A DNA stretch of 64,000 bases, taken from Serratia nematodiphila DZ0503SBS1 (GTDB lineage Bacteria > Pseudomonadota > Gammaproteobacteria > Enterobacterales > Enterobacteriaceae). This document shows, piece after piece, positions 15,905 through 38,311 of this stretch. Each line of letters starts with the position of its first letter. Position 1 is the stretch's first letter. The stretch spans positions 1,116,001 through 1,180,000 of the forward strand of contig NZ_JPUX01000001.1 of assembly GCF_000738675.1 (NCBI RefSeq). Direction: 5' to 3'. The position numbers and the translations under genes were made by a program. The notes under the pieces are model-generated. The model saw only the letters and a program-made list of their open reading frames with translations, was not told the DNA's origin and ran no database searches.

Positions 15905-15932
15905 AAAAGCCGGCTGCAATGCCGGCTTTTTT
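15905..15932. terminator. Bidirectional terminator between ilvC and the luxR-type gene
   Basis: AGCCGGC-tgcaat-GCCGGCT followed by T6 on the plus strand and preceded by an A-rich run that gives T-rich sequence on the minus strand. The genes on either side converge. Confidence 0.85.
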
Positions 15933-16632
15933 ATGCCTGCGGCGGCGCGATCAGTTGCCGTTCAAGGCCGCGCCGGATCGCGTGTTTGGCGTTGGCGACC
16001 CCCAGCTTACGCACCGCATTGCCGATGTGAAACTTCACCGTGCCGGTTTTGATCCCCAGGATCAGCGCGATCTCATTATAGGTTTTGCCCTGGCTGGCCC
16101 AATAGAGAATTTCCCCTTCGCGCGGCGAGAGCCGATCCTTTCGGCCAGCCTCGGCGCTGGCCAACGCAAACGCGTGCTGGTGGGTATCGACCAAGACCAT
16201 CTGCAGGCTGGCCCTTTCTTCCTCCATTAGCTGCCGCAGTTCGGCGTCATCGGCCGCCGTCGCGCTGATCGACAAGATCGCCAGATTGTTGTCGTGATCG
16301 TGCAAAACAAAGCTGCAACCGTGCACGATGTCGTACTCCCGCGCCTGGCTGAAGATCTTCCGGTAATGCCGATCCTCGGTGGTGAGGGCGGTGTCGTGCC
16401 ACATAAAGGGCGCACAGCGGTTATGGGCGGCGCGCACGACGGGATCGATGCGCTGATAGCGATTGGCACTGTAGATGTCCAGCCATTCTTGCGGATAGCT
16501 CGATACCAGCAGATGGCGGTCGGGATGGTGTTTATTGAAGGTCAGGTAAGCGTATTTGAATTGGCTGAAGGCCTGTAGCCGGCCATCAAGATGCAGTCTT
16601 GCGGCGACGGCGTTGGCGAATGTGACGGCCAT
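15931..16632 (-). CDS. LuxR-type regulator with AHL-binding domain (LuxR solo)
   Basis: A 233-residue quorum-sensing-type regulator. I choose the start at 16632 (MAVTFANAVAARLHLD), preceded by AGGGAGG; the frame stays open to 16836 but without a ribosome site. The N-terminal autoinducer-binding domain (about 25-155) shows the conserved pattern WLDIYSANRYQRIDPV (Trp, Tyr, Asp-Pro that contact acyl-homoserine lactones) and a later FMW. The C-terminal GerE/LuxR HTH (about 165-228) reads LSPREGEILYWASQGKTYNE then GTVKFHIGNAVRKLGV. No luxI-type synthase lies in the window, so it is a solo here, comparable to SdiA. Its targets are unknown. Confidence 0.87.
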   Translation of the reverse strand: MAVTFANAVAARLHLDGRLQAFSQFKYAYLTFNKHHPDRHLLVSSYPQEWLDIYSANRYQRIDPVVRAAHNRCAPFMWHDTALTTEDRHYRKIFSQAREYDIVHGCSFVLHDHDNNLAILSISATAADDAELRQLMEEERASLQMVLVDTHQHAFALASAEAGRKDRLSPREGEILYWASQGKTYNEIALILGIKTGTVKFHIGNAVRKLGVANAKHAIRRGLERQLIAPPQA

Positions 16633-16875
16633 CGGTAACCTCCCTGTCGTTCGGCGGCTCAGCCCGACCTGCACCAAAGTCCAGCTAGTCAGTGCGGCGG
16701 ATTGAAATTTATACTCGGCTAATAAATTCAAAAAGACGGCAATGCCAAGACCCGAGCTTAGCAGCTCTGGGCGGAAATAAGCCAACGCCAGGGAAATTCT
16801 TTCAATCATCCTCTGATCAATGCTTCTGGGATCCATTGCGTGGGCGGCGGGGTGACTTCGCCGCCGCCTTATTGA

Positions 16876-17901: not shown

Positions 17902-18046
17902 TTTATGATCGCGATCGGCCAACGCCAACAGGGTGAAGAGGAAAGCATGCGGCAATTCGTGCTTAAAGTTTTACGCGGCGTGGCCGATAAGTTGGGTAAA
18001 GAAACAGCGGCAGCGCTCTCACTTCCCCGCCACGGCGATAGTACCG

Positions 18047-18838
18047 ATGATAACCAATCTGATCTCGGGTCTGCTGGCGCCCTGTTTTGCCCTCTATGCC
18101 TGCGCCAAATCGCGGCGCTACTGGCGGCAATGCCGGCGCTTGTATACCTTCCAGCCGATTTATCGCACCAGCGGCGCGCTGTTGGCGGTGGAACTGCTGA
18201 CGGCGGTATATCACCCGAATGAGCCGGACAAGCGGCAATCCCCGGAACACTATTTTGCCTCGCTCGGCGTCGCCCAGCGTTTGCGGGTGGTTCAGGAACA
18301 GCTGGCGCTGTTGCAGCGCTGGCAGGCGTTGTTCACCCGCCATGCGGTGATGGTGTCGGTCAATATCGACGGCATCGCGCTGCAAGCATTACAGCGTCAT
18401 AGCGCCTTGCAACGGCAGATCGCCGAGATGCCCTATCTGCGCTTCGAGCTGGTGGAGCACGCCGCAACGGCATCAAGCCGCCCGCTGCAGCAGATTGTCG
18501 GCGGCGAGCGGCTGTGGCTGGACGATTTCGGCAGCGGGCTGGCCAACTTCTCCGCCGTCGGCGCCTGGCGCTATCAATACATCAAGGTGGCGCGCGAATT
18601 GTTCACCTTGCTCAAACAGTCGGAAGAGGGCGTCCAGCTGCTCGGCACCCTGATCAAAATGATGAACCAGCACAGCGACGGGGTGATCGTCGAAGGCGTG
18701 GAAACCGAGCAGGAGTGGCGGCTGGTGCAGCGCTCCGGCGCGTTGGCCGCCCAGGGCTACTACCTTTCCCGTCCGGCGTGCTTTGAAACGCTGCACAGCG
18801 TGCCGACGCTGTTCGCCGCGCCCGGCGCGCCGGCGTGA
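18047..18838 (+). CDS. pdeH: EAL-domain c-di-GMP phosphodiesterase PdeH (YhjH)
   Basis: Hydrolyses c-di-GMP; E. coli PdeH keeps global c-di-GMP low during flagellar motility. It is 263 residues from the ATG at 18047 (MITNLISGLLAPCF), which lines up with the E. coli start MIRQVIQRIS up to the shared YT-QPIY segment. The EAL signature appears as ELL (AVELLTAVYHP). Catalytic and metal residues are visible in VNIDG, RFELVEH, LWLDDFGSGLANF and VIVEGVET. An in-frame GTG at 17933 would add 38 residues but lacks homology. The synteny kdgK-pdeH-yhjG is as in E. coli. It shares its upstream region with kdgK. Confidence 0.9.
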   Translation: MITNLISGLLAPCFALYACAKSRRYWRQCRRLYTFQPIYRTSGALLAVELLTAVYHPNEPDKRQSPEHYFASLGVAQRLRVVQEQLALLQRWQALFTRHAVMVSVNIDGIALQALQRHSALQRQIAEMPYLRFELVEHAATASSRPLQQIVGGERLWLDDFGSGLANFSAVGAWRYQYIKVARELFTLLKQSEEGVQLLGTLIKMMNQHSDGVIVEGVETEQEWRLVQRSGALAAQGYYLSRPACFETLHSVPTLFAAPGAPA

Positions 18839-23488: not shown

Positions 23489-24508
23489 TCAGCGTGTCGG
23501 CGGCTCGCGTTCAGGCAAGGCTTTGTCGCCTTGGTAGTCGGCCGTTGCGATCCAGGCGGCGCAAAACAGCGTCAGGCGGGCGAAGAAGTAGAAGAACGCC
23601 ATCAGCCCGATCACCGAGCCGAAGGCCGCGCCGGAAGGCGATTTCGCCACCTGCGGCAGCGTCATCGTCATCACGAACTTGATCACCTCAAAGCCGATAG
23701 CCGCAAGCAAGGTGCCGCGCAGCAGCGCTTTTTTCTTCGGTTTGTGGCGCGGCAGCATCCAGAAAATCCACAGGAACAGCAGATAGTTGGCGAAAATCGA
23801 GATCGACAGTGCGATCGTCGTCAGCGCCGGCCGCAGCCATTCGATGCCGTCCAGCCCCAGCGCGTTGACGATCGCCGCCTGCGCCGACCCGGCGACCGAG
23901 GTCAGCGACAGCGTGATAATCAGCGCGACCACCAGGCCGGTCAGCGAGATGAAATCGCGGGTGTACTTGAAATAGATTTTCTCCTGATCCTGCGGATTGC
24001 GCTCCCAGACGTCACGTGACTGCGCGCGGATCGCTTCGCGCAGGTTGCCCATCCAACTGATGCCGGAATAGAGCGCCAGCGCCAGGCCGGTCAACCCCAC
24101 GGTGGTGCGCTGCTGAATGGCGGTATTGACGGTGTTCTTCAGCGTGCTGGCCAGCGTCGGATCGCTGATGCTGCCGACGATCCGGTTGATCAAGCGGGCC
24201 AGCAGATCCGGGTTGGAAGCCAGCACGAAACCGGCGGCGGCGAACGACACCATCAGGATCGGGATCAGCGAGAGGAATGAAAAGTAGGTGATGGCGGCGC
24301 CGAACTGGCTGCCCAGCCGATCGTTAAAACGTTCGGCGGCGCGCAGCAGGTGCGCCACGCTCGGCCAGGCTTTGATGCGTTCAATCAGACGTGAAAAACC
24401 GCTGATGCGGCGGTCGAGCGTCTCATGGCCGGTCTTGATGGCGATAAGCGGCTTCGGTGGCGTGTCTTGTGCGGGCTCGCGGCGTTCCTGGTCTGGTCCT
24501 GTAGGCAT
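23489..24508 (-). CDS. yhjD: YihY/UPF0761 membrane protein YhjD
   Basis: A 339-residue inner-membrane protein with a hydrophilic N-terminus (1-70) and about six TM segments, colinear with E. coli YhjD (337 aa): RFNDRLGSQFGAAITYFSFL and LREAIRAQSRDVWERNPQDQ are near-identical. YhjD was implicated in lipid A precursor (lipid IVA) export because certain yhjD mutations suppress the lethality of Kdo loss. The biochemical role is not settled. It is next to yhjE as in E. coli. Confidence 0.93.
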   Translation of the reverse strand: MPTGPDQERREPAQDTPPKPLIAIKTGHETLDRRISGFSRLIERIKAWPSVAHLLRAAERFNDRLGSQFGAAITYFSFLSLIPILMVSFAAAGFVLASNPDLLARLINRIVGSISDPTLASTLKNTVNTAIQQRTTVGLTGLALALYSGISWMGNLREAIRAQSRDVWERNPQDQEKIYFKYTRDFISLTGLVVALIITLSLTSVAGSAQAAIVNALGLDGIEWLRPALTTIALSISIFANYLLFLWIFWMLPRHKPKKKALLRGTLLAAIGFEVIKFVMTMTLPQVAKSPSGAAFGSVIGLMAFFYFFARLTLFCAAWIATADYQGDKALPEREPPTR

Positions 24509-24849
24509 TACTTCACGATTTCCTTAACGTTAAACGGCATGTATCAGCGTTGATTATAGCCAAAGCCCTGCGGCGTTTTGAGCGCCGGGGCGGCAAACGG
24601 TCAATTTCCGAGCTTAACGCGTTAGCGCCCTGCATGAAATGCCGGGGATGGCGCGATAGGTAAAATTCCTATGGAAACCCCGTGGCGCCTCGGTTTTTTT
24701 CACTTCTCTACCTCCAATTTTTATCTGTTTCGTCGGCGAGAAAGCGTTTACTCATGATGTGGCGTCGCGCTTTACCGCTCGCCGCTCCGCTGCAGCCGTA
24801 GGGGCTGGAACGGTCTTATCCGTCATCAACAGAAAAACTGGAAGGTCTT
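24509..24849. other. Upstream region of rpfF (divergent from yhjD)
   Basis: About 340 bp between divergent yhjD and rpfF. It must hold both promoters. I see no strong palindrome and no ORF. Confidence 0.45.
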
Positions 24850-25716
24850 ATGAAATTGCTTAATCACCCCACCTGTCGTCCGTTTACCGAAGCGGGCAAT
24901 CTGTCGCAGATCTCCGCCTACTATGAAGAGGGGCGGCACATCATGTGGATGCTGCTGCGCGCTGCGCCACGCCCCTGCTTCAACCAGGCGTTGATTGAAG
25001 ACATCATGACGCTGGCGCAGGCGGCGAAGGAGTCTTCGCTGCGGTTCGACTTCTGGGTCACCGGCTCGCTGGTGCCGAACATGTTCAACGTCGGTGGCGA
25101 TCTGCAGTTCTTCGCCGAAGCGATCAAAAACCGCAAGCGCGAGGCGATGATGGCCTACGCGCGCGCCTGCATCGACTGCGTGCATGCGGCGGCGCGCGGT
25201 TTCGACACCGGCGCGGTCAGCATTGCGATGGTTGAAGGCAGCGCGCTGGGCGGCGGTTTTGAAGCGGCGCTGGCGCACCATTTCGTATTGGCGCAAAACA
25301 ATGCGCGCATGGGGTTCCCGGAGATTGCGTTCAACCTGTTTCCCGGCATGGGGGGTTACTCGCTGGTGGCGCGCAAGGCGGGCATGCGCTTGGCCGAGGA
25401 GCTGATTTGGGGCGGCGAGTCGCACACCGCAGAGTGGTTCGAGAGTCGCGGGCTGGTAGACCAGCTGTTTCAGCCCGGCGATGCTTACCTGGCGACGCGC
25501 ACCTTCATCGATACCATCCGGCCGAAGCTCAACGGCATGCGCGCCATGCTGCGGGCGCGTCAGCGCGTGTTGCAGCTGACGCGTTCCGAGCTGATGGACA
25601 TTACCGAAGATTGGGTGCACTCGGCCTTTACCATTGAGGAAAAAGACCGTGCCTACATCGAGCGGCTGGTGATGTTGCAGGATCGCCATACCCTGAACCT
25701 GCGTCGTGCCGGCTAA
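24850..25716 (+). CDS. rpfF: RpfF-type DSF synthase (crotonase fold)
   Basis: Crotonase-superfamily enzyme of the RpfF family, which makes cis-2-unsaturated fatty acid signals (diffusible signal factor) from acyl-ACP by combined dehydratase and thioesterase activity. It is 288 residues. Diagnostic segments are NVGGDLQFFAEAIK, EGSALGGGFEAALAHH and GFPEIAFNLFPGMGGYSL. The two catalytic glutamates are E138 (GGGFE) and E158 (GFPE), matching E141 and E161 of Xanthomonas RpfF. Ordinary enoyl-CoA hydratases lack the NxGGDL...FNLFPGMG combination. It is convergent with an rpfR-like receptor gene 16 nt away, the arrangement I recall from Burkholderia and Cronobacter. The ATG at 24850 follows GGAAGGTC. 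Confidence 0.88.
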   Translation: MKLLNHPTCRPFTEAGNLSQISAYYEEGRHIMWMLLRAAPRPCFNQALIEDIMTLAQAAKESSLRFDFWVTGSLVPNMFNVGGDLQFFAEAIKNRKREAMMAYARACIDCVHAAARGFDTGAVSIAMVEGSALGGGFEAALAHHFVLAQNNARMGFPEIAFNLFPGMGGYSLVARKAGMRLAEELIWGGESHTAEWFESRGLVDQLFQPGDAYLATRTFIDTIRPKLNGMRAMLRARQRVLQLTRSELMDITEDWVHSAFTIEEKDRAYIERLVMLQDRHTLNLRRAG

Positions 25717-25732
25717 CGTTAACGCGCCCGCC

Positions 25733-27727
25733 TCATGCGGAGGGTGAGCGCGGGCGATAGGACTGCAGCCAATGCTCCAGCTGTTCCGGGAGCATTGGCC
25801 GCGCGAACAGAAAGCCCTGTTTTTCGTCCACGCCGACTTCGTCGAGGAAGTGGTTTTCGCTCTCGGTCTCCACTCCTTCGGCGATCACGCGGAAGGCCAA
25901 CGCCTCCGCCGCCGCGACGATCGCGCGTACCAGCGATTGCGATACCGGATTGAAATTCACCCCGCGCACGAAGCTTTTATCCAGCTTGATGGCGTCCAGA
26001 GGAATACGTGCCAGCTGCGCCAGCGACGAATAGCCGGTGCCAAAGTCGTCGAGATGCACCTGCGCGCCCAGTTCGCGCAGCCGGGTGATCAGCGCGCGCG
26101 CGCGATTCTCGTCTTCAATCAGGCTGCTTTCGGTCAACTCGAAGTCCAGCAGACAGGGGGCCATGCGGTGACGGTGCAGCACCCCGAGCAGGTCGTTGAC
26201 GATGCTGTCATCGGCCAGCTGACGGGCAGAGAGGTTGACCGCCACCCGCAGATTCAATCCCTGCTCTTGCCACTGCGCCGCCTGCCCGGCGGCGGTTTGC
26301 AGCACCCATTGGCCCAGCGGGCCGATCAGGCCGGACTCCTCGGCGTAGGAGATGAACTGCAGCGGTGGGATCAGGCCGCGCTCCGGCGAATCCCAGCGCA
26401 CCAGCGCTTCCACGCTGTGCACTTCACCGCTGTGCGCGTCGATTTTAGGCTGGTAATACAGCACCAGCTGATTTTGCTCCAACCCTTTGCGCAGATTGGT
26501 GTCCAGCCACATGTACTCGGCGACGCGTTTGTTCATCTCCGGCGAGAAGACGGTATAGGTGCGTTTTCCGTGCTCCTTGGCGACGTACATGGCGGTATCG
26601 GCGCTGCGGATCAGGCTGTCGAGATCGTTGCCGTGCTCCGGGCACAGCGCGATGCCGATCGAACAGCCGGTATACACCTCAATCAGGCCGATGCGAAAAG
26701 GGGTCTTCAGCCTGTCGATAATGCGCTGCGCCAGCGTTTGCAGGCGCTCGCGATCGCTTTGTGGCGCCAGCACCAAGAATTCGTCGCCGCCGAGGCGGGC
26801 GAGCACTTGATCCGGGCTCAGGCAGCCGAGGATCGCCAGCGCGACCTCGACCAGCAGCCGATCGCCGAACATATGGCCGTAGGCGTCGTTGACCTTTTTG
26901 AAGTTGTCGAGATCGAGGTACACCAGGCCGAAACTCTCTTCGCCGCGCGTGGCGATGGCGTGATTGATCTTGTCTTGTATGGCGTTACGGTTCGGCAGGC
27001 CGGTGATGAGATCGGTGTTGGCCAGCACCCGTAGCCGCTCTTGCGCGCGGCGTTCTTCGGTGATGTCGGTACCGGAGCAGATCAGAAAGACTTCGTTTTT
27101 TCCGCTGCCGCTGTGCACGAATTTGTTGCGAAACAGGAACAGCCGTTCACCCTTGACCGTCTTTACCCAGCGTTCCACCTCATAGGACGAACCGTTGCGG
27201 AAGAAGCCGGCGATGTTGCGCCGCGAAGCGGCGGCTTCTTCCGGGCTCATAAACAGTTGGAAAACGTTTTTGCCGATCACCTCGTGTTCGTGCAGCCCGG
27301 TGTACTCCTCGCTCAGCCGGTTGAAGCGCTGGATGCGGCCGTGCTGATCGACGATCACGATCACCGAGTTGGCTTCGGACACCACCTGCTCGGCGAAGGA
27401 GAGGCCATGCACCAGGTCGCGCGCCACGGATTGGGTGTCGCTGAAGGCGGAAGCGGTGCCCGCCCATTCGAGGTTGTTGACGCGGCGCCCGACCAGATGC
27501 AGATGCAGCGGTTCACCGGCTAGCGTAATGGTCAGCTCAAGGCTGGCGGTCACGCCGGTCAGACGGCGGATTTTCGCCGCTTCCATGGCGCTGAGCGCCA
27601 CCGCGACATGAGCTTTGCCCTTAATAGCGGACAGCTCCAGGGCATTGCTGTCAAACGCCAGCCGCCAGTGGGGGCTTTGGGTGCCGAAGTGAGCGCTAAG
27701 AAGCTCAGGGCCTTGGTCTGCGGGCAT
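25733..27727 (-). CDS. rpfR: RpfR-type DSF receptor: FI-PAS-GGDEF-EAL
   Basis: A 664-residue cytoplasmic c-di-GMP turnover protein. Domain order: N-terminal FI-like domain (about 1-95; in the family it contacts RpfF), PAS sensor (about 105-225), GGDEF with intact motif GGDEF at 313-317 (ARLGGDEFLVL), and EAL with motif EAL at 440-442 (SVEALVRW). Catalytic-site segments VNLSARQLA, FELTESSLIED, LDDFGTGYSSL and EGVETE are present, so phosphodiesterase activity is expected. In B. cenocepacia, BDSF binding to the PAS domain stimulates c-di-GMP hydrolysis. E. coli PdeR (YciR) is a relative but has no rpfF partner. The adjacent convergent rpfF supports the DSF receptor role. Confidence 0.87.
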   Translation of the reverse strand: MPADQGPELLSAHFGTQSPHWRLAFDSNALELSAIKGKAHVAVALSAMEAAKIRRLTGVTASLELTITLAGEPLHLHLVGRRVNNLEWAGTASAFSDTQSVARDLVHGLSFAEQVVSEANSVIVIVDQHGRIQRFNRLSEEYTGLHEHEVIGKNVFQLFMSPEEAAASRRNIAGFFRNGSSYEVERWVKTVKGERLFLFRNKFVHSGSGKNEVFLICSGTDITEERRAQERLRVLANTDLITGLPNRNAIQDKINHAIATRGEESFGLVYLDLDNFKKVNDAYGHMFGDRLLVEVALAILGCLSPDQVLARLGGDEFLVLAPQSDRERLQTLAQRIIDRLKTPFRIGLIEVYTGCSIGIALCPEHGNDLDSLIRSADTAMYVAKEHGKRTYTVFSPEMNKRVAEYMWLDTNLRKGLEQNQLVLYYQPKIDAHSGEVHSVEALVRWDSPERGLIPPLQFISYAEESGLIGPLGQWVLQTAAGQAAQWQEQGLNLRVAVNLSARQLADDSIVNDLLGVLHRHRMAPCLLDFELTESSLIEDENRARALITRLRELGAQVHLDDFGTGYSSLAQLARIPLDAIKLDKSFVRGVNFNPVSQSLVRAIVAAAEALAFRVIAEGVETESENHFLDEVGVDEKQGFLFARPMLPEQLEHWLQSYRPRSPSA

Positions 27728-28259
27728 GACGATTCCTCAAAAGAGCACGGGCGGGCGGGCGGCACAGCGCCGGGCAGCCTGTTGGCCCGAAAGCGATCGC
27801 CGTACGCATCTGTGCATCATATAACAGGTTTTCACAGGCGGGGCGGGTGATGGAAACTATTATATAAGCAATGATTAGTTTTGCGGTGTAAACGTCGCCC
27901 GGCGGCCGCTTGCCTTAAAGTGTAGGAGAACATCGGATCGTGTGATGCTTAGTGATTTCCCCTGCTATCGGAAAACGGTTGATACAAGGTTGCCGTGCAG
28001 GTGAGTAAATTATAGCGGTGAGGGGAAAGCGGAAAAATAACTCCACCGGGGGGATTTTTGCCGAGAAATTGAAATTTCCATCAAATAAACGCCATCTTCA
28101 TAGTTTTCTCATAATTGGTGAATAAATCCGATCCGGGTTTTAAAAAGTTTACACACCCTCGCATTACTTGAAATTTATCAGCCTATTATTATCTCCGACA
28201 ACGAATGAGCCTGTTAACGTACAGCGCTCCTGATGAAGAAAATTTTTAAGGAAATGATT
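27728..28259. promoter_or_regulatory. Long region between divergent rpfR and spy
   Basis: About 530 bp, AT-rich toward spy, without an ORF. It holds the rpfR promoter at the left and the spy promoter at the right. spy is controlled by CpxR and BaeR in E. coli. Several TTTAC/GTAAA-like elements occur (for example GTTTACAC near 28146), but none has the spacing needed to call a CpxR box. Confidence 0.4.
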
Positions 28260-28751
28260 ATGCGTAAATTGACGGCTTTATTTATTGCTTCCACGCTGGC
28301 CCTGGGTTCTGCTTCCGCGGCGTTCGCCGCCGATACGGCGACGGCCCCGGCGGCGGATGCGGCGCCGATGAAAATGATGCATCACAAGGGTGAAGGCAAA
28401 GGCGGCCCGTTCGCCGGGCTGAACCTGACCGAGCAGCAGCGCCAGCAGATGCGCGATATCATGAAAGAGTCGCACCAGAAGCGCGGGCCGGGCATGAAAG
28501 AGGAGCGCCAGGCGTTGCACAATCTGGTCGCTTCCGACAGCTTTGACGAAGCGAAGGCGAAGGCGCAAATTGACGCGATCGGCAAAGCGCAATCCGAACG
28601 CATGCTGGCACGCGCCAAAGCGGAAAATAAAATGTATAACCTGCTGACGCCTGAGCAGAAAAAACAATACAATGAGAATTATCAGAAACGCGAGCAAAAG
28701 ATGATGGACCACATGAATAAAATGAAGGAGCAGATGCCCGCCGGTCAGTAA
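28260..28751 (+). CDS. spy: Periplasmic chaperone Spy
   Basis: ATP-independent periplasmic chaperone induced by envelope stress. It is 163 residues from the ATG at 28260 (MRKLTALFIASTLALGSASA), preceded by AAGGAA; an in-frame ATG at 28233 lacks signal-peptide logic. The signal peptide is cleaved after about residue 28 (AFA-AD). The mature part is highly charged and helical with the two family LTxxQ motifs, LTEQQRQQMRDIM and LTPEQKKQYNENY. Closely similar to E. coli Spy (161 aa). It ends in a strong terminator. Confidence 0.94.
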   Translation: MRKLTALFIASTLALGSASAAFAADTATAPAADAAPMKMMHHKGEGKGGPFAGLNLTEQQRQQMRDIMKESHQKRGPGMKEERQALHNLVASDSFDEAKAKAQIDAIGKAQSERMLARAKAENKMYNLLTPEQKKQYNENYQKREQKMMDHMNKMKEQMPAGQ

Positions 28752-28838: not shown

Positions 28839-28925
28839 GATTGAACCTGTGAGGCTCTAGCCTGAAGGAAACCCATGCCGGAATATTCCAGCTTACTCAC
28901 CACAAGTAAGAAGGAAATCACCAAC

Positions 28926-29363
28926 ATGGGTTTATACAGGAGTTCATCACATGTGTTCTGGCGTTGCAAATACCACCTGGTTTGGACGCCAAAGTATCGA
29001 TTTAAAATCCTCCGCGACAAGGTGGGCAAAGAGCTCTACCGAACAATTTATATCCTCTGCAACATGAAGGACTGTGAAGTTCTTGAGCTAAATATTCAGC
29101 CAGATCATGTGCATCTGGTCGTGATAGTCCCCCCGAAGCTATCGATTTCGACGTTGATGGGCGTCCTGAAAGGACGCAGTGCAATCCGGCTTTACAATCG
29201 TTTCCCACATATACGAAAGAAGTTGTGGGGCAATCATTTTTGGGCAAGGGGATACTTTGTCGATACGGTAGGGGTAAACGAAGAAATTATCAGGCGATAC
29301 GTGAAGTATCAGGATAAGAAGGACCAAGAGATCGAACAGCAGATGGAGCTGTTGCAGGATTAA
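28926..29363 (+). CDS. tnpA: IS200-type Y1 HUH transposase TnpA
   Basis: A 145-residue single-strand transposase. The HUH metal-binding motif is DHVHLVV, and the catalytic Tyr region lies in the C-terminal helix EEIIRRYVKYQDKKD. The N-terminal SSHVFWRCKYHLVWTPKYR is typical of the IS200 branch. The ATG at 28926 gives a full-length protein, so the gene is intact. Upstream, CTTACT...AGTAAG just before AAGGAAATCACC could form a small hairpin near the ribosome site, as in IS200, where translation is kept low. No tnpB/IscB-type accessory gene is present. Confidence 0.9.
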   Translation: MGLYRSSSHVFWRCKYHLVWTPKYRFKILRDKVGKELYRTIYILCNMKDCEVLELNIQPDHVHLVVIVPPKLSISTLMGVLKGRSAIRLYNRFPHIRKKLWGNHFWARGYFVDTVGVNEEIIRRYVKYQDKKDQEIEQQMELLQD

Positions 29364-31977: not shown

Positions 31978-34900
31978 ATGGAGAAGAAACGTAGAGGAGT
32001 CAAATCCGCTCGGGCGGCCTTCGGCTGGCCTGAAATCGGAGTTCATCGCGCACAATGGAGCGCGATGCTGATCTGCCTGACGGCGATTGGCGGGGCGCAG
32101 GCCTCCAGCTATATAGAGAACGGCCAGGCGGGCGATCCGGCCAGCTGGCGCAGCAGTGAGTTCAATGCGGAATGGGGGCTGGGGGCGATCCACGCCGACC
32201 AGGCCTACGCCGCCGGTTATACCGGAAAAGGCATCAAACTTGGCATTTTCGATCAGCCGGTTTACGCCAAGCACCCGGAGTTCGCCGGTGAGAATAAGGT
32301 GATCAATCTGGTTACCGAAGGCATCCGTGAATACACCGATCCCTATATTCCGGTGAAAAAAGGCGACGCTTTCCGCTATGACGGCACGCCGAGCGTGGAT
32401 TCCGATGGCACGCTCGGTTCGCACGGCACCCACGTGGGCGGCATCGCCGCCGGCAGCCGAGACGGCGGCGCCATGCACGGCGTGGCGTTCAACGCGCAGA
32501 TCATCAGCGCGGAGAACGGCGATCCCGGCCCGGAGGACGGCATCATCCTCGGCAACGACGGCGCGGTGTATAAGGCTGGTTGGGATGCGCTGGTGGCCAG
32601 CGGCGCGCGCATCATCAACAACAGCTGGGGCATCGGCATTACAGATAAATTCGCCAAGGGCGGTAAGAACCCGGCTTATCCGCATTTCACCGTTGACGAT
32701 GCGCAAAAGCAGTTCGATCAGATTAAACAGATCCTCGGCACCAACCCCGGGGGCGCCTATCAGGGCGCGATCGACGCGGCCCGCAGCGGCGTGGTCACCA
32801 TCTTCGCCGCCGGTAACGATTACAACCTGAACAATCCGGACGCCATGGCCGGCCTGGCCTATTTTGTGCCGGAGATTGCGCCGAACTGGCTGTCGGTCGC
32901 CAGCTTGCAGGATCCGACCAATACCGGCGATTACAGCATCAGCACCTTCTCTTCTCGCTGCGGTTATACCGCCAGCTTCTGCGTCTCGGCGCCGGGCACC
33001 CGGGTATACAGCTCGGTAATCGAAGGCACCAGCCTAGAGAATCTGACAACCGGCTACGCCAAATACAGCGGCACCTCGATGGCGGCGCCGCACGTGGCCG
33101 GCAGCGTCGCGGTGCTGATGGAGCGTTTCCCGTATCTGAGTGGCGCGCAGGTGGCGGAAGTGCTGAAAACCACTGCCACCGATATGGGCGCGCCGGGCAT
33201 CGACGCGCTCTACGGTTGGGGGATGATCAACCTGGGCAAGGCCATCAACGGCCCGGGCATGTTGGTGACTGCCGAAGATATTCCTGCGGAGTTCCGTATT
33301 CCGGATCCGACGGGCGTGGCCTACGGCCCGACCCAGTTTGTGGTGGATCTGCCGGGCGTCGGCGCGGTGCTGGACAAGGGTAAACCGACCGAGCGCGTCT
33401 GCAGCGATGTGCTGTGCGGCCTGGATTTCTGGAGCAACGACATCTCCGGCCATGGCGGCCTGACCAAACAGGGCATCGGCACGTTGGTACTGACCGGTAA
33501 CAACACCTATGCCGGCCCGACGCTGGTTAATCAGGGGCGGCTGGCGATCAACGGCTCGGTCACGTCGGATGTCAGCGTGCAGAACGGCGGCATCGTCGGC
33601 GGCAGCGGCACGGTCGGTTCGCTGACCGCCCGCCGTGGCGGCACCGTGGCGCCGGGCAACTCGATCGGTACCCTGAACGTGGCCGGCAACGTCAGCTTCG
33701 AGCCGGGTTCGCGCTATGCGGTGGAAGTGGGGCCGAACGGCCAGAGCGATCGGATCCAGAGCAGCGGAGCGGCGACGATTGGCGGCGGCGAGGTGGCGGT
33801 CACGCTGGAGAACAGCAGCAACCTGCTGACGCAAAGCGAGGTGCGCAGCCTGCTGGGCCAGCAGTACACCATCCTGAGCGCGCAGCAGGGGGTGAGCGGG
33901 CAGTTTGACGCGGTGGCACCGAACTACCTGTTCCTCGGCACCGGGCTGAGCTACCAGCCGAATGGGGTAACGCTGAGCGTCGGGCGCAACGGCACAAGCT
34001 TCGCCAGCGTGGCGCAGACGGCGAACGAGCGGGCGGTGGCGGCGGCGGCGGATGCGCTGGCGGCGGGCAACCCGGTGTACGAGAGCCTGCTCAGCAGCGG
34101 CTCGGCGGGCGAGGCGCGGCAGGCGTTCCGCCAGCTGTCGGGGCAAATCCATGCGGACATCGCGTCGGCGCTGGTGAACGACAGCCGCTACCTGCGTGAG
34201 GCGCTGAACGGGCGTCTGCGTCAGGCGGAAGGGCTGGCGAGCTCGTCGGCCATCAAGGCGGACGAGGACGGCGCCTGGGCGCAACTGCTGGGGGCGTGGG
34301 ACCATGCATCGGGCGACGCCAACGCCACCGGCTATCAGGCCTCGACCTACGGGGTGCTGGTGGGGCTGGACTCGGCGGCGGCGGCCGACTGGCGGCTGGG
34401 GGTGGCGACCGGCTACACCCGCACCTCGCTGCACGGCGGGTACGGGTCGAAGGCGGACAGCGACAACTACCACCTGGCGGCGTACGGCGACAAGCAGTTT
34501 GGCGCGCTGGCGCTGCGCGGCGGGGCGGGCTACACCTGGCACCGCATCGACACCAAACGGTCGGTGAACTACGGGATGCAGTCGGACCGCGACACGGCGA
34601 AGTACAGCGCGCGCACCGAGCAGCTGTTCGCGGAAGCGGGTTACAGCGTGAAGGGTGAGTGGCTGAACCTGGAGCCGTTCGTCAACCTGGCGTACGTGAA
34701 CTTTGAAAACAACGGCATCGCGGAAAGCGGCGGCGCAGCGGCGCTGCGCGGCGACAAGCAGCATACCGACGCGACGGTGTCGACGCTGGGAGTGCGTGCG
34801 GACACTGAGTGGCAGGTGAGCCCAGGCACGACGGTGGCGCTGCGCAGCGAGCTGGGGTGGCAACACCAGTACGGCGGGCTGGAGCGTGGCACCGGGCTGC

Positions 34901-35088
34901 GGTTCAACGGCGGCAACGCGCCGTTCGTGGTGGACAGCGTGCCGGTGTCGCGCGACGGGATGGTGCTGAAGGCGGGGGCGGAAGTGGCGGTGAACGAGAA
35001 CGCCACGCTGTCGCTGGGCTACGGCGGGCTGCTGTCGCAGAACCACCAGGACAACAGCGTCAACGCCGGCTTCACCTGGCGCTTCTAA
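31978..35088 (+). CDS. Subtilisin-type serine protease autotransporter (SSP homologue 1)
   Basis: A 1036-residue type Va secreted protease. The N-terminus is long and basic with a hydrophobic core (SAMLICLTAIGGAQA); cleavage is expected after about A42. The S8 subtilase domain runs to about residue 415 with triad D92 (LGIFDQPV), H149 (SHGTHVGG) and S367 (GTSMAAPHVAGS). A linker and a passenger-associated beta-helix repeat follow (about 495-590, GGLTKQGIGTLVLTGNNTYA). The C-terminal autotransporter beta-barrel (about 765-1036) ends in Phe (GFTWRF). It closely resembles the S. marcescens SSP homologue pair (Ssp-h1/h2). From 33160 onward it is almost identical to the next gene. Confidence 0.92.
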   Translation: MEKKRRGVKSARAAFGWPEIGVHRAQWSAMLICLTAIGGAQASSYIENGQAGDPASWRSSEFNAEWGLGAIHADQAYAAGYTGKGIKLGIFDQPVYAKHPEFAGENKVINLVTEGIREYTDPYIPVKKGDAFRYDGTPSVDSDGTLGSHGTHVGGIAAGSRDGGAMHGVAFNAQIISAENGDPGPEDGIILGNDGAVYKAGWDALVASGARIINNSWGIGITDKFAKGGKNPAYPHFTVDDAQKQFDQIKQILGTNPGGAYQGAIDAARSGVVTIFAAGNDYNLNNPDAMAGLAYFVPEIAPNWLSVASLQDPTNTGDYSISTFSSRCGYTASFCVSAPGTRVYSSVIEGTSLENLTTGYAKYSGTSMAAPHVAGSVAVLMERFPYLSGAQVAEVLKTTATDMGAPGIDALYGWGMINLGKAINGPGMLVTAEDIPAEFRIPDPTGVAYGPTQFVVDLPGVGAVLDKGKPTERVCSDVLCGLDFWSNDISGHGGLTKQGIGTLVLTGNNTYAGPTLVNQGRLAINGSVTSDVSVQNGGIVGGSGTVGSLTARRGGTVAPGNSIGTLNVAGNVSFEPGSRYAVEVGPNGQSDRIQSSGAATIGGGEVAVTLENSSNLLTQSEVRSLLGQQYTILSAQQGVSGQFDAVAPNYLFLGTGLSYQPNGVTLSVGRNGTSFASVAQTANERAVAAAADALAAGNPVYESLLSSGSAGEARQAFRQLSGQIHADIASALVNDSRYLREALNGRLRQAEGLASSSAIKADEDGAWAQLLGAWDHASGDANATGYQASTYGVLVGLDSAAAADWRLGVATGYTRTSLHGGYGSKADSDNYHLAAYGDKQFGALALRGGAGYTWHRIDTKRSVNYGMQSDRDTAKYSARTEQLFAEAGYSVKGEWLNLEPFVNLAYVNFENNGIAESGGAAALRGDKQHTDATVSTLGVRADTEWQVSPGTTVALRSELGWQHQYGGLERGTGLRFNGGNAPFVVDSVPVSRDGMVLKAGAEVAVNENATLSLGYGGLLSQNHQDNSVNAGFTWRF
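33160..35085 (+). repeat. Direct repeat, copy 1 (3' halves of the two protease genes)
   Basis: A segment of about 1.93 kb that aligns without gaps to 36383-38308 at a constant offset of 3223 bp. The encoded stretch of about 640 residues differs at only 8 positions, whereas the catalytic halves upstream are clearly diverged. Confidence 0.93.
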
Positions 35089-35206: not shown

Positions 35207-38200
35207 ATGACAACAACAATGGGTTTTGATAGCAAAGGAAACGCTCGTCGCTCGCCATGGCGGCTGAACGCGCTGGTCTGCTGCATGGCGCTGGCGGGGT
35301 ATGCGCAGGCGGCGCCGCACGAGGTGAATGGCCAAGCCGGCGATCCGGCCAGCTGGCGCAGCGCCGAATTCAACGCCAACTGGGGGCTGGGGGCGATCCA
35401 CGCCGATGAGGCCTACGCCGCCGGCTACACCGGCAAAGGGCAAAAGGTGGGCATTTTCGATACCCCGGTCAACCGCCATCCCGAGTTCGCCGGCGACGGC
35501 AAACTGATCAACGTCGTTACCGAAGGCTACCGCGCCTATACCGATCCGCACCGGCCGGGGATTAACGCCGGCGATCGCTTTTACTTCGACGGCACCTTCC
35601 ACTTCTACAGCGGCTCGCAGGGCATGCTGAGCAATCACGGGGTGCACGTCGCGGGCATCAGCGCGGCGAACCGCGACGGCGTCGGCATGCACGGCGTGGC
35701 CTTCGATTCGCAGGTGATCAGCGTCGATAACGACAACGACGGCCCGGCCTACGGCGAATTCCTTGGCCTGGACGGCGCCGTCACCAATGCCGGCTGGCAG
35801 GCGATGATCAAGAGCGGCGTGCGGGTGATCAACAACAGCTGGGGCGTCAGTATTCCCGATTTCCTGTCCGACGGCGGCCGCGATCCCAACGCGCTGCACT
35901 TTGAGCTGAAGGATGCGCAGGAACAGTTCGATCAGGTCAAACCGCTGCTCGGCAGCCTGGCTGGCGCAGGTTATCAGGGCGCTATCGACGCCGCGCGCAA
36001 GAATATTCTGGTGTTGTTCGCCGCGGGTAACGACGGCAACTACAACCAGCCGGATGTGATCAGCGGGCTGGCCTATTTCGTGCCGGACATCGCGCCGAAC
36101 TGGCTGTCGGTCGCCAGCGTGGCGCAGGATGCGACATCGACCAACAGCGTGCCTTACACCATCAGCAGCTTCTCTTCCCGTTGCGGCTATACCGCCAGCT
36201 TCTGCGTCTCGTCGCCGGGCAGCAAAATCTACAGCACCGTGGCCAACGGTTCCGATCCGGCCAACCTGGTGTCGGACTACGGCAATAAAAACGGCACCTC
36301 GATGGCGACACCGCACGTCACCGGCGCGGTGGCGGTGTTGCTGCAGCGCTTCCCGTACATGAGCTCGGCGCAGATTGCCGACGTGCTGAAAACCACTGCC
36401 ACCGATATGGGCGCGCCGGGCATCGACGCGCTCTACGGTTGGGGGATGATCAACCTGGGCAAGGCCATCAACGGCCCGGGCATGTTGGTGACTGCCGAAG
36501 ATATTCCTGCGGAGTTCCGTATTCCGGATCCGACGGGCGTGGCCTACGGCCCGACCCAGTTTGTGGTGGATCTGCCGGGCGTCGGCGCGGTGCTGGACAA
36601 GGGTAAACCGACCGAGCGCGTCTGCAGCGATGTGCTGTGCGGCCTGGATTTCTGGAGCAACGACATCTCCGGCCATGGCGGCCTGACCAAACAGGGCATC
36701 GGCACGTTGGTACTGACCGGTAACAACACCTATGCCGGCCCGACGCTGGTCAATCAGGGGCGGCTGGCGATCAACGGCTCGGTCACCTCGGATGTCAGCG
36801 TGCAGAACGGCGGCATCGTCGGCGGCAGCGGTACGGTCGGTTCGCTGACCGCCCGCCGTGGCGGCACCGTGGCGCCGGGCAACTCGATCGGCACCCTGAA
36901 CGTGGCCGGCAACGTCAGCTTCGAGCCGGGTTCGCGCTACACGGTGGAAGTGGGGCCGAACGGCCAGAGCGATCGGATCCAGAGCGGCGGAGCGGCGACG
37001 ATCGGCGGCGGCGAGGTGGCGGTGACGCTGGAGAACAGCGCCAACCTGCTGACGCAAAGCGAGGTGCGCAGCCTGCTGGGCCAGCAGTACACCATCCTGA
37101 GCGCGCAGCAGGGGGTCAGCGGGCAGTTTGACGCGGTGGCGCCGAACTACCTGTTCCTCGGCACCGGGCTGAGCTACCAGCCGACCGGGGTAACGCTGAG
37201 CGTCGGGCGCAACGGCACGAGCTTCGCCAGCGTGGCGCAGACGCCGAACGAGCGGGCGGTGGCGGCGGCGGCGGATGCGCTGGCGGCGGGCAACCCGGTG
37301 TACGAGAGCCTGCTCAACAGCGGCACGGCGGGCGAGGCGCGGCAGGCGTTCCGTCAGCTGTCGGGGCAAATCCATGCGGACATCGCGTCGGCGCTGGTGA
37401 ACGACAGCCGCTACCTGCGTGAGGCGCTGAACGGGCGTCTGCGTCAGGCGGAAGGGCTGGCGAGCTCGTCGGCCATCAAGGCGGACGAGGACGGCGCCTG
37501 GGCGCAGCTGCTGGGAGCGTGGGACCATGCGTCGGGCGACGCCAACGCCACCGGCTATCAGGCCTCGACCTACGGGGTGCTGGTGGGGCTGGACTCGGCG
37601 GCGGCGGCCGACTGGCGGCTGGGGGTGGCGACCGGCTACACCCGCACCTCGCTGCACGGCGGGTACGGGTCGAAGGCGGACAGCGACAACTACCACCTGG
37701 CGGCGTACGGCGACAAGCAGTTTGGCGCGCTGGCGCTGCGGGGCGGGGCGGGCTACACCTGGCACCGCATCGACACCAAGCGGTCGGTGAACTACGGGAT
37801 GCAGTCGGACCGCGACACGGCGAAGTACAGCGCGCGCACCGAGCAGCTGTTCGCGGAAGCGGGCTACAGCGTGAAGGGCGAGTGGCTGAACCTGGAGCCG
37901 TTCGTCAACCTGGCGTACGTGAACTTTGAAAACAACGGCATTGCGGAAAGCGGCGGCGCAGCGGCGCTGCGCGGCGACAAGCAGCACACCGACGCGACGG
38001 TGTCGACGCTGGGAGTGCGCGCGGACACTGAGTGGCAGGTGAGCCCGGGCACGACGGTGGCGCTGCGCAGCGAGCTGGGGTGGCAACACCAGTACGGCGG
38101 GCTGGAGCGTGGCACCGGGCTGCGGTTCAACGGCGGCAACGCGCCGTTCGTGGTGGACAGCGTGCCGGTGTCGCGCGACGGCATGGTGCTGAAGGCGGGG

Positions 38201-38311
38201 GCGGAAGTGGCGGTGAACGAGAACGCCTCGCTGTCGCTGGGCTACGGCGGGCTGCTGTCGCAGAACCATCAGGACAACAGCGTCAACGCCGGTTTCACCT
38301 GGCGCTTCTAA
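35207..38311 (+). CDS. Subtilisin-type serine protease autotransporter (SSP homologue 2)
   Basis: A 1034-residue paralogue of the upstream gene. The signal peptide has core ALVCCMALAGYAQA, cleaved after about A35. The S8 subtilase triad is D85 (VGIFDTPV), H144 (NHGVHVAG, with Val in place of the more usual Thr) and S365 (GTSMATPHVTGA). Passenger repeat and beta-barrel are as in the first copy, ending GFTWRF. The protease domain is clearly different in sequence from copy 1, so substrate or activity may differ, while the secretion half is nearly identical. AAGGAA lies just before the ATG. Confidence 0.92.
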   Translation: MTTTMGFDSKGNARRSPWRLNALVCCMALAGYAQAAPHEVNGQAGDPASWRSAEFNANWGLGAIHADEAYAAGYTGKGQKVGIFDTPVNRHPEFAGDGKLINVVTEGYRAYTDPHRPGINAGDRFYFDGTFHFYSGSQGMLSNHGVHVAGISAANRDGVGMHGVAFDSQVISVDNDNDGPAYGEFLGLDGAVTNAGWQAMIKSGVRVINNSWGVSIPDFLSDGGRDPNALHFELKDAQEQFDQVKPLLGSLAGAGYQGAIDAARKNILVLFAAGNDGNYNQPDVISGLAYFVPDIAPNWLSVASVAQDATSTNSVPYTISSFSSRCGYTASFCVSSPGSKIYSTVANGSDPANLVSDYGNKNGTSMATPHVTGAVAVLLQRFPYMSSAQIADVLKTTATDMGAPGIDALYGWGMINLGKAINGPGMLVTAEDIPAEFRIPDPTGVAYGPTQFVVDLPGVGAVLDKGKPTERVCSDVLCGLDFWSNDISGHGGLTKQGIGTLVLTGNNTYAGPTLVNQGRLAINGSVTSDVSVQNGGIVGGSGTVGSLTARRGGTVAPGNSIGTLNVAGNVSFEPGSRYTVEVGPNGQSDRIQSGGAATIGGGEVAVTLENSANLLTQSEVRSLLGQQYTILSAQQGVSGQFDAVAPNYLFLGTGLSYQPTGVTLSVGRNGTSFASVAQTPNERAVAAAADALAAGNPVYESLLNSGTAGEARQAFRQLSGQIHADIASALVNDSRYLREALNGRLRQAEGLASSSAIKADEDGAWAQLLGAWDHASGDANATGYQASTYGVLVGLDSAAAADWRLGVATGYTRTSLHGGYGSKADSDNYHLAAYGDKQFGALALRGGAGYTWHRIDTKRSVNYGMQSDRDTAKYSARTEQLFAEAGYSVKGEWLNLEPFVNLAYVNFENNGIAESGGAAALRGDKQHTDATVSTLGVRADTEWQVSPGTTVALRSELGWQHQYGGLERGTGLRFNGGNAPFVVDSVPVSRDGMVLKAGAEVAVNENASLSLGYGGLLSQNHQDNSVNAGFTWRF
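36383..38308 (+). repeat. Direct repeat, copy 2 (3' halves of the two protease genes)
   Basis: Partner of 33160-35085, same length, no indels. Most differences are isolated single-base changes. Confidence 0.93.

Follow-up and report, generated by a model that had tools for sequence, protein, structure and literature searches.

A predicted RpfF/RpfR signalling module in Serratia nematodiphila and the RpfR receptors of genomes without the synthase

Does Serratia nematodiphila DZ0503SBS1 make and sense a signal of the diffusible signal factor (DSF) type, and how does its receptor relate to those of relatives in which no synthase is found? The question is raised by two convergent genes in a 64,000-nucleotide stretch of contig NZ_JPUX01000001.1 (positions 1,116,001 to 1,180,000), termed the window, within which all coordinates are given. 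The host genome comprises 5.22 Mb in two contigs. We consider it very likely that the locus is an RpfF/RpfR module of the Burkholderia-Cronobacter type, predicted to make and sense a cis-2 fatty acid. What deserves to be followed up is the outcome of the comparison for receptors that lack a synthase.

The gene pair and its surroundings

Both genes are intact and lie tail to tail, with a gap of 16 bp as read from the open reading frames (Table 1). One encodes the 288-residue crotonase that a preliminary description of the window had delimited; its reading frame is exact and the two glutamates are found at residues 138 and 158. Residues 1-285 align with the solved RpfF structures PDB 6dgn (464.9 bits) and 5fus (461.7 bits). 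The best NCBI model is a loosely named crotonase, PRK08788 (413.6 bits, cut-off 177). On the NCBI model that carries the name RpfF (NF053515), which we take to represent the Xanthomonas-type protein, the score is 180.6 bits and thus below the cut-off of 550. In the best 12 named loci, such as those of S. ureilytica and S. marcescens, RpfF is 97-99% identical.

Table 1. Features of the rpfF/rpfR locus and selected neighbours (window coordinates).
Feature	Position	Strand	Assignment and evidence
rpfF	24850..25716	+	Predicted DSF (cis-2-enoic acid) synthase, crotonase fold, 288 aa; PDB 6dgn/5fus, PRK08788, tree
RpfF E138 codon	25261..25263	+	Predicted catalytic glutamate; conserved in RpfF rows, also in 5/7 other crotonases of the genome
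RpfF E158 codon	25321..25323	+	Predicted catalytic glutamate; conserved as E138
rpfR	25733..27727	-	Predicted DSF receptor, FI-PAS-GGDEF-EAL, 664 aa; NF007474, Pfam, PDB
RpfR FI domain, residues 5-95	27443..27715	-	Predicted RpfF binder; contains G15, P19, D26, S27, A29; 6dga match
RpfR PAS domain, residues 114-223	27059..27388	-	Contacts S168, N171, Y182, R186, N201; 6dgg match
RpfR GGDEF domain, residues 236-389	26561..27022	-	Pfam PF00990; RLGGDEF intact
RpfR EAL domain, residues 411-644	25796..26497	-	Pfam PF00563; EALVRW and DDFGTGY intact
yhjD	23489-24508		Model match, 410.7 bits (cut-off 213.65)
PdeH-type phosphodiesterase	17933-18838		NF008617, 377.8 bits (cut-off 190)
LuxR protein with autoinducer-binding domain	15931-16836	-	

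The preliminary description had relied on this glutamate pair and on two segments that it called RpfF-specific. The glutamates are present but weak as an argument, since five of the seven other crotonases of the same genome share both of them; we therefore rejected the pair as proof of an RpfF. The segments, FNVGGDL and FNLFPGMG, are present in RpfF and absent from all seven (0/7). However, similar segments occur in RpfF-like crotonases of other Gammaproteobacteria, and thus they mark a class of crotonases and not DSF synthesis alone. Better evidence than the glutamates comes from the coupling of RpfF with RpfR and from a phylogenetic tree in which RpfF was set beside the seven other crotonases found in its genome and beside seven RpfF-like proteins from elsewhere in the Gammaproteobacteria (X_L314 and L304 were left out). 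In this tree a split with 100/100 support separates RpfF, grouped with the RpfF-type proteins, from the seven crotonases of its own genome, as the reading of the gene as an RpfF had called for. One of the RpfF-like proteins, which is over the cut-off of NF053515 (579.2 bits), sits on the RpfF side as well.

The convergent neighbour is indeed a full FI-PAS-GGDEF-EAL protein of 664 codons with all three motifs of its c-di-GMP domains intact (Table 1). Its FI and PAS domains match PDB 6dga (E 6e-18) and 6dgg (E 2.2e-59), and its GGDEF and EAL domains are recognized by Pfam (E 8.6e-45 and 1.5e-70). With 1161.7 bits on the PdeR/RpfR model NF007474 (cut-off 782), it is the sole protein of the host genome over that cut-off. 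The second contig (773 kb by subtraction) also has GGDEF or EAL matches. In the structure of the Cronobacter RpfR PAS domain, as presented in a passage of PMC6361424, the signal BDSF is contacted by S169, N172, Y183, R187 and N202; all five residues are kept in Serratia RpfR.

On one side the pair is flanked by yhjD, a metabolite/H+ symporter, a CDP-diacylglycerol pyrophosphatase, an AsmA-like protein (a weak match, 32.6 bits against a cut-off of 412), a PdeH-type phosphodiesterase, kdgK and the LuxR protein; on the other side lies a gene for a Spy-type chaperone. The phosphodiesterase, over the cut-off of NF008617, which we take to be the PdeH model, is the nearby PdeH of the preliminary description. 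One other genome, G025, has the same gene order all the way between kdgK and the Spy-type gene, and G032 and G078 share this order with one gene unmatched in each; yhjD adjoins the pair in these three genomes and in G172. This adjacency lends no support to a plasmid origin of the locus, which we considered, and none of the plasmid records reaches 80% coverage of it. Between the Spy-type gene and a UPF0261 gene lies an IS200/IS605-type transposase gene (28875-29363, plus strand; 155.7 bits, cut-off 55), which has no match in the G025, G032 and G078 loci, though both of its neighbours are there. Further along the plus strand are two tandem autotransporter serine proteases (31978-35088 and 35207-38311), whose best model is EprS, with 801.6 and 785.9 bits under its cut-off of 1700.

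The gap between the two genes (25716-25733) was inspected for regulatory elements. A hairpin was rejected, as folding was no better than that of shuffled sequences (z -0.43 and -0.09 for the two strands). Two terminator-like sites were found in 24400-28300, neither of them inside the gap. Since the gap is this short and free of such sites, and the tight tail-to-tail order is widely kept, the rpfF and rpfR transcripts may overlap.

The nearby LuxR protein had been described as an AHL-type solo, and this holds: an autoinducer-binding domain is present, and no LuxI-type synthase was matched in the host genome. On the SdiA model the protein scores 85.1 bits, far under the cut-off of 350. Among 30 genomes of the genus, its own included, the LuxI model matched 14 and RpfF was found in 27; the three without RpfF are 1.5 to 2.5 Mb in size. 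In Serratia, the predicted DSF-type quorum sensing thus looks more constant than quorum sensing based on lactones.

Conservation and position of the pair across genomes

We surveyed two samples of the family. In the first, 149 genomes from 148 genera, RpfF was over its cut-off in 30 and RpfR in 43 (44 at E 1e-200). In the second, a draw of 392 genomes, RpfF was present in 99 and RpfR in 140 (139 over the cut-off). All 99 genomes with RpfF also have RpfR. The two genes are convergent at 99 of the 100 places at which RpfF was found, and 91 of the 100 lie within 250 bp of RpfR, with the gap measured between model matches. The sole exception to convergence is found in G290, which has an additional RpfF copy about 280 kb away from its pair. 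When one genome per species was scanned, 241 loci matched, of which 80 named ones were kept; this set overlaps with the genome samples. In 80/80 the 3-kb flank contains RpfR on the other strand, and its longest frame is partial in four of these. Individual genomes deviate in detail. In six (G019, G065, G193, G343, G399 and G277) the genes are convergent yet 1.5 to 6.3 kb apart. The RpfF frames of G349 and G411, which were counted as RpfF-bearing, are shortened, and the signal contacts of the receptor are intact in both. The RpfR matches of G252 and G198 each contain one stop codon.

We then related the pair to rnb, the neighbour of pdeR in E. coli. Among the 44 RpfR genomes of the first sample, RpfR lies within 5 kb of rnb in 20 of the 30 with RpfF and in 13 of the 14 without it; in the fourteenth, rnb and RpfR are on different contigs. 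The E. coli record reads yciW, rnb, pdeR, ymiD, yciZ, yciT, osmB, yciH, pyrF, and the order in G041 is yciW, rnb, rpfR, rpfF, yciZ, yciT, osmB, yciH, pyrF. Thus, pdeR and rpfR share one locus, without and with the synthase gene, respectively. The Serratia pair lies away from this locus, beside yhjD. Its receptor is not an orphan PdeR of the E. coli type, as rpfF is adjacent and rnb is about 2.2 Mb off in contig coordinates.

Receptors with and without a synthase

To compare the two kinds of receptor we used 98 RpfR sequences from RpfF-bearing genomes (the 99 less G252, whose frame is interrupted) and 40 orphans, namely 39 of the 41 from genomes without RpfF (G028 and G228, in which RpfR is partial, were left out) and E. 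coli PdeR. The five signal contacts read SNYRN in all 98 readable receptors that go with an RpfF; those of B. cenocepacia read SNFRN, a single Y-to-F change. Among the 40 orphans the contacts are intact in 17 and altered in 23. S is replaced by A in eight of them, R by L in three, including E. coli, and Y by W in one. N171 has become Y in eight and K, H and D once each; the receptor with D also has Y to F. N201 is unchanged in 40/40.

The FI domain, in which 15 positions are invariant across the 98 paired receptors, differs more widely. Five of its residues (G15, P19, D26, S27 and A29), invariant in 99/99 RpfR rows with RpfF, are changed in 38 of the 40 orphans and all intact in only two. These five were chosen because they are changed in orphans, and a fair check therefore needs receptors that played no part in the choice. 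In 16 such receptors, from Burkholderiales with RpfF, the five are kept in 16/16 cases, and the signal contacts in 79 of 80 cells. At the positions that are invariant in the 98, orphans are changed in 16.8% of the cells in FI, 4.4% in PAS, 0.9% in GGDEF and 0.8% in EAL; the corresponding values for the Burkholderiales are 5.8, 9.5, 6.7 and 1.9%. Receptor decay is thus strongest at the input side, and in FI above all. Across the entire PAS domain the orphans show no more change than the distant Burkholderiales do, but they do so at its five contacts (24/200 against 1/80 cells), and within PAS these contacts are changed more often than the 54 other invariant positions (Mann-Whitney p 0.012). Other PAS positions that are often changed in orphans are V122, V184 and N120. 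Since these vary while N201 never does, lipid binding may be partly retained in receptors without RpfF.

Shared ancestry has to be considered in such counts. In a quick RpfR tree of 138 rows (G061 and G252 left out), RpfF presence undergoes 10 state changes, and so does the state of the contacts. A strict test restricted to independent pairs on well-supported branches yielded six pairs, with a mean of 3.7 for a link between RpfF and intact contacts, 0 against it and 2.3 showing no difference; it is not significant (median p 0.125), and its result is suggestive only. The residue counts themselves are compatible with either loss or gain of rpfF. Five genera (g41, g72, g81, g140 and g144, some of whose genomes are drafts) contain species with and species without RpfF, a pattern that suggests recent events. 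G266, which alone among the orphans keeps both signatures, belongs to one of these genera.

We think it likely that PdeR of E. coli and its enterobacterial counterparts are RpfRs that once had a synthase gene next to them at this locus, and that this gene disappeared independently in several lineages. The receptors would then have shed FI residues from among the five, which are predicted to dock RpfF, and in many lineages also the residues that hold the carboxylate of the signal, while both c-di-GMP domains were kept. If this is true, DSF signalling would be of long standing around the E. coli lineage and would have vanished repeatedly, and a sequence test in two parts would separate live DSF receptors from retired ones. 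The comparison offers a simple account of E. coli PdeR and of the enterobacteria that are still expected to hear DSF.

The FI domain is also the one whose divergence follows that of RpfF. With the other domains regressed out, the partial correlation with RpfF distances across the 98 rows is 0.567 for FI, compared with 0.273 for EAL, 0.239 for PAS and -0.077 for GGDEF. FI of the Serratia group is 59% identical to that of B. cenocepacia and 46% to FI of those enterobacteria whose RpfF lies beside rnb, whereas PAS shows the reverse trend (64% and 83%). Moreover, B. cenocepacia is placed near Serratia and Yersinia-like rows in RpfF trees. We considered horizontal transfer between Burkholderiales and Serratia-like bacteria and make no such claim, because a topology in which the RpfFs of enterobacteria form one group is not rejected (p-AU 0.358). 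The likeness would be explained equally well if FI and RpfF had changed faster, and in a linked way, on a single branch. A mismatch is also seen among closer lineages. The PAS domain of Serratia is closer to Pantoea and Enterobacter (86 and 85%) than to Yersinia (77%), and for FI the opposite is true (47 and 46% against 58%). Recombination could account for this, as could unequal rates of change.

Predicted function and relation to known systems

How would the module work? We infer each biochemical step, and the identity of the acid, from work on Burkholderia and Cronobacter, where the mechanism is described in passages of PMC6361424. RpfF would dehydrate a 3-hydroxyacyl-ACP to the cis-2-enoyl-ACP and then hydrolyse it, so that a free cis-2-unsaturated fatty acid such as BDSF would be released. 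The FI domain of RpfR would bind to RpfF and keep its activity in check. With rising amounts of the acid, the PAS domain of RpfR would be occupied by it; this would raise the phosphodiesterase activity of EAL and thereby lower the level of c-di-GMP. In Serratia, binding and restraint of RpfF by FI are predicted from the conservation of FI in company with RpfF and from the correlated distances. The genes, domains and ligand residues are intact, the pairing is conserved, and the conservation of FI and of the PAS contacts goes with the presence of rpfF. The earlier proposal that the organism makes and senses a cis-2 acid stands as a prediction from sequence, backed by the tree, the complete RpfR, the 99/99 pairing and the 80 named loci.

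Two other readings have to be weighed. RpfF might be mainly a broad acyl-ACP thioesterase that tunes the intracellular flow of fatty acids, with RpfR sensing a general fatty acid such as C12:0 and not a secreted signal. Passages of PMC6361424 indeed report that RpfF cleaves a broad range of acyl-ACPs and that the Cronobacter PAS domain co-purified with C12:0. The constancy among orphans of N201, which touches the double-bond carbon in Cronobacter, adds that some lipid binding may not need a synthase. However, Burkholderia RpfR binds BDSF (Kd 877 nM) far more tightly than C12:0 (800 uM), as cited in the same source, and the carboxylate contacts decay in receptors without a synthase, which fits the synthase product as the ligand. 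We hold this reading to be improbable.

We give just as little credence to the idea that Serratia RpfR is chiefly a PdeR-like trigger phosphodiesterase, which works by partner contact and for which the signal is of little weight. Its score on the PdeR/RpfR model, where it stands alone in the genome, would suit such a role, and sections of PMC9684580 call YciR a trigger enzyme and report that Burkholderia RpfR also acts through contact with the regulator BerB. But Serratia keeps the synthase, the FI residues and the contacts, whereas E. coli PdeR is left with no synthase and has lost one of the contacts (R to L) as well as FI residues. Moreover, the trigger mode and the signal mode of RpfR can coexist. 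We therefore retain the RpfF/RpfR module of the Burkholderia-Cronobacter type as the best explanation.

The module itself is known, in a genus already named as a holder; the reading of the locus is correct, and DSF production by Serratia is a prediction. Serratia is named in PMC4504480 and PMC4698668 as carrying RpfF/RpfR or one of these proteins, and the genus is listed for RpfR in a part of PMC6361424 and for RpfF in a part of PMC12838280. PMC6361424 also describes E. coli as lacking a synthase and as having a conserved homologue of rpfR (gmr), and reports that E. coli K-12 produces BDSF once supplied with the Burkholderia synthase gene; YciR is compared with RpfR in a section of PMC9684580. 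Among the literature matches listed, we found no paper devoted to DSF in Serratia. Nor was it stated among these matches, in a set mostly outside subscription journals and for PMC6361424 in its main text, that PdeR occupies the RpfF-RpfR locus minus the synthase, or that signal contacts are lost from a receptor when no synthase accompanies it.

The closest known systems are those of B. cenocepacia and C. turicensis (PMC6361424, PMC4698668), which share with Serratia both proteins, the domains, the convergent order, the PAS contacts and the FI residues; the adjacent convergent arrangement is reported in a passage of the former. Compared with the B. cenocepacia record, Serratia RpfF is 70% and RpfR 60% identical. 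Unlike in the Burkholderia and Cronobacter systems, the pair in Serratia lies beside yhjD and its function is predicted. RpfF proteins of the NF053515 type belong to the same crotonase class as Serratia RpfF, which remains below the cut-off of their model. The Xanthomonas-type DSF system is read by the sensor kinase RpfC, according to a passage of PMC4504480. Finally, E. coli PdeR (YciR, Gmr) is 63% identical to Serratia RpfR, has the four domains in common with it and occupies the same locus as the rpfR-rpfF pair of other enterobacteria, but it differs in having no adjacent rpfF, one altered contact and changed FI residues.
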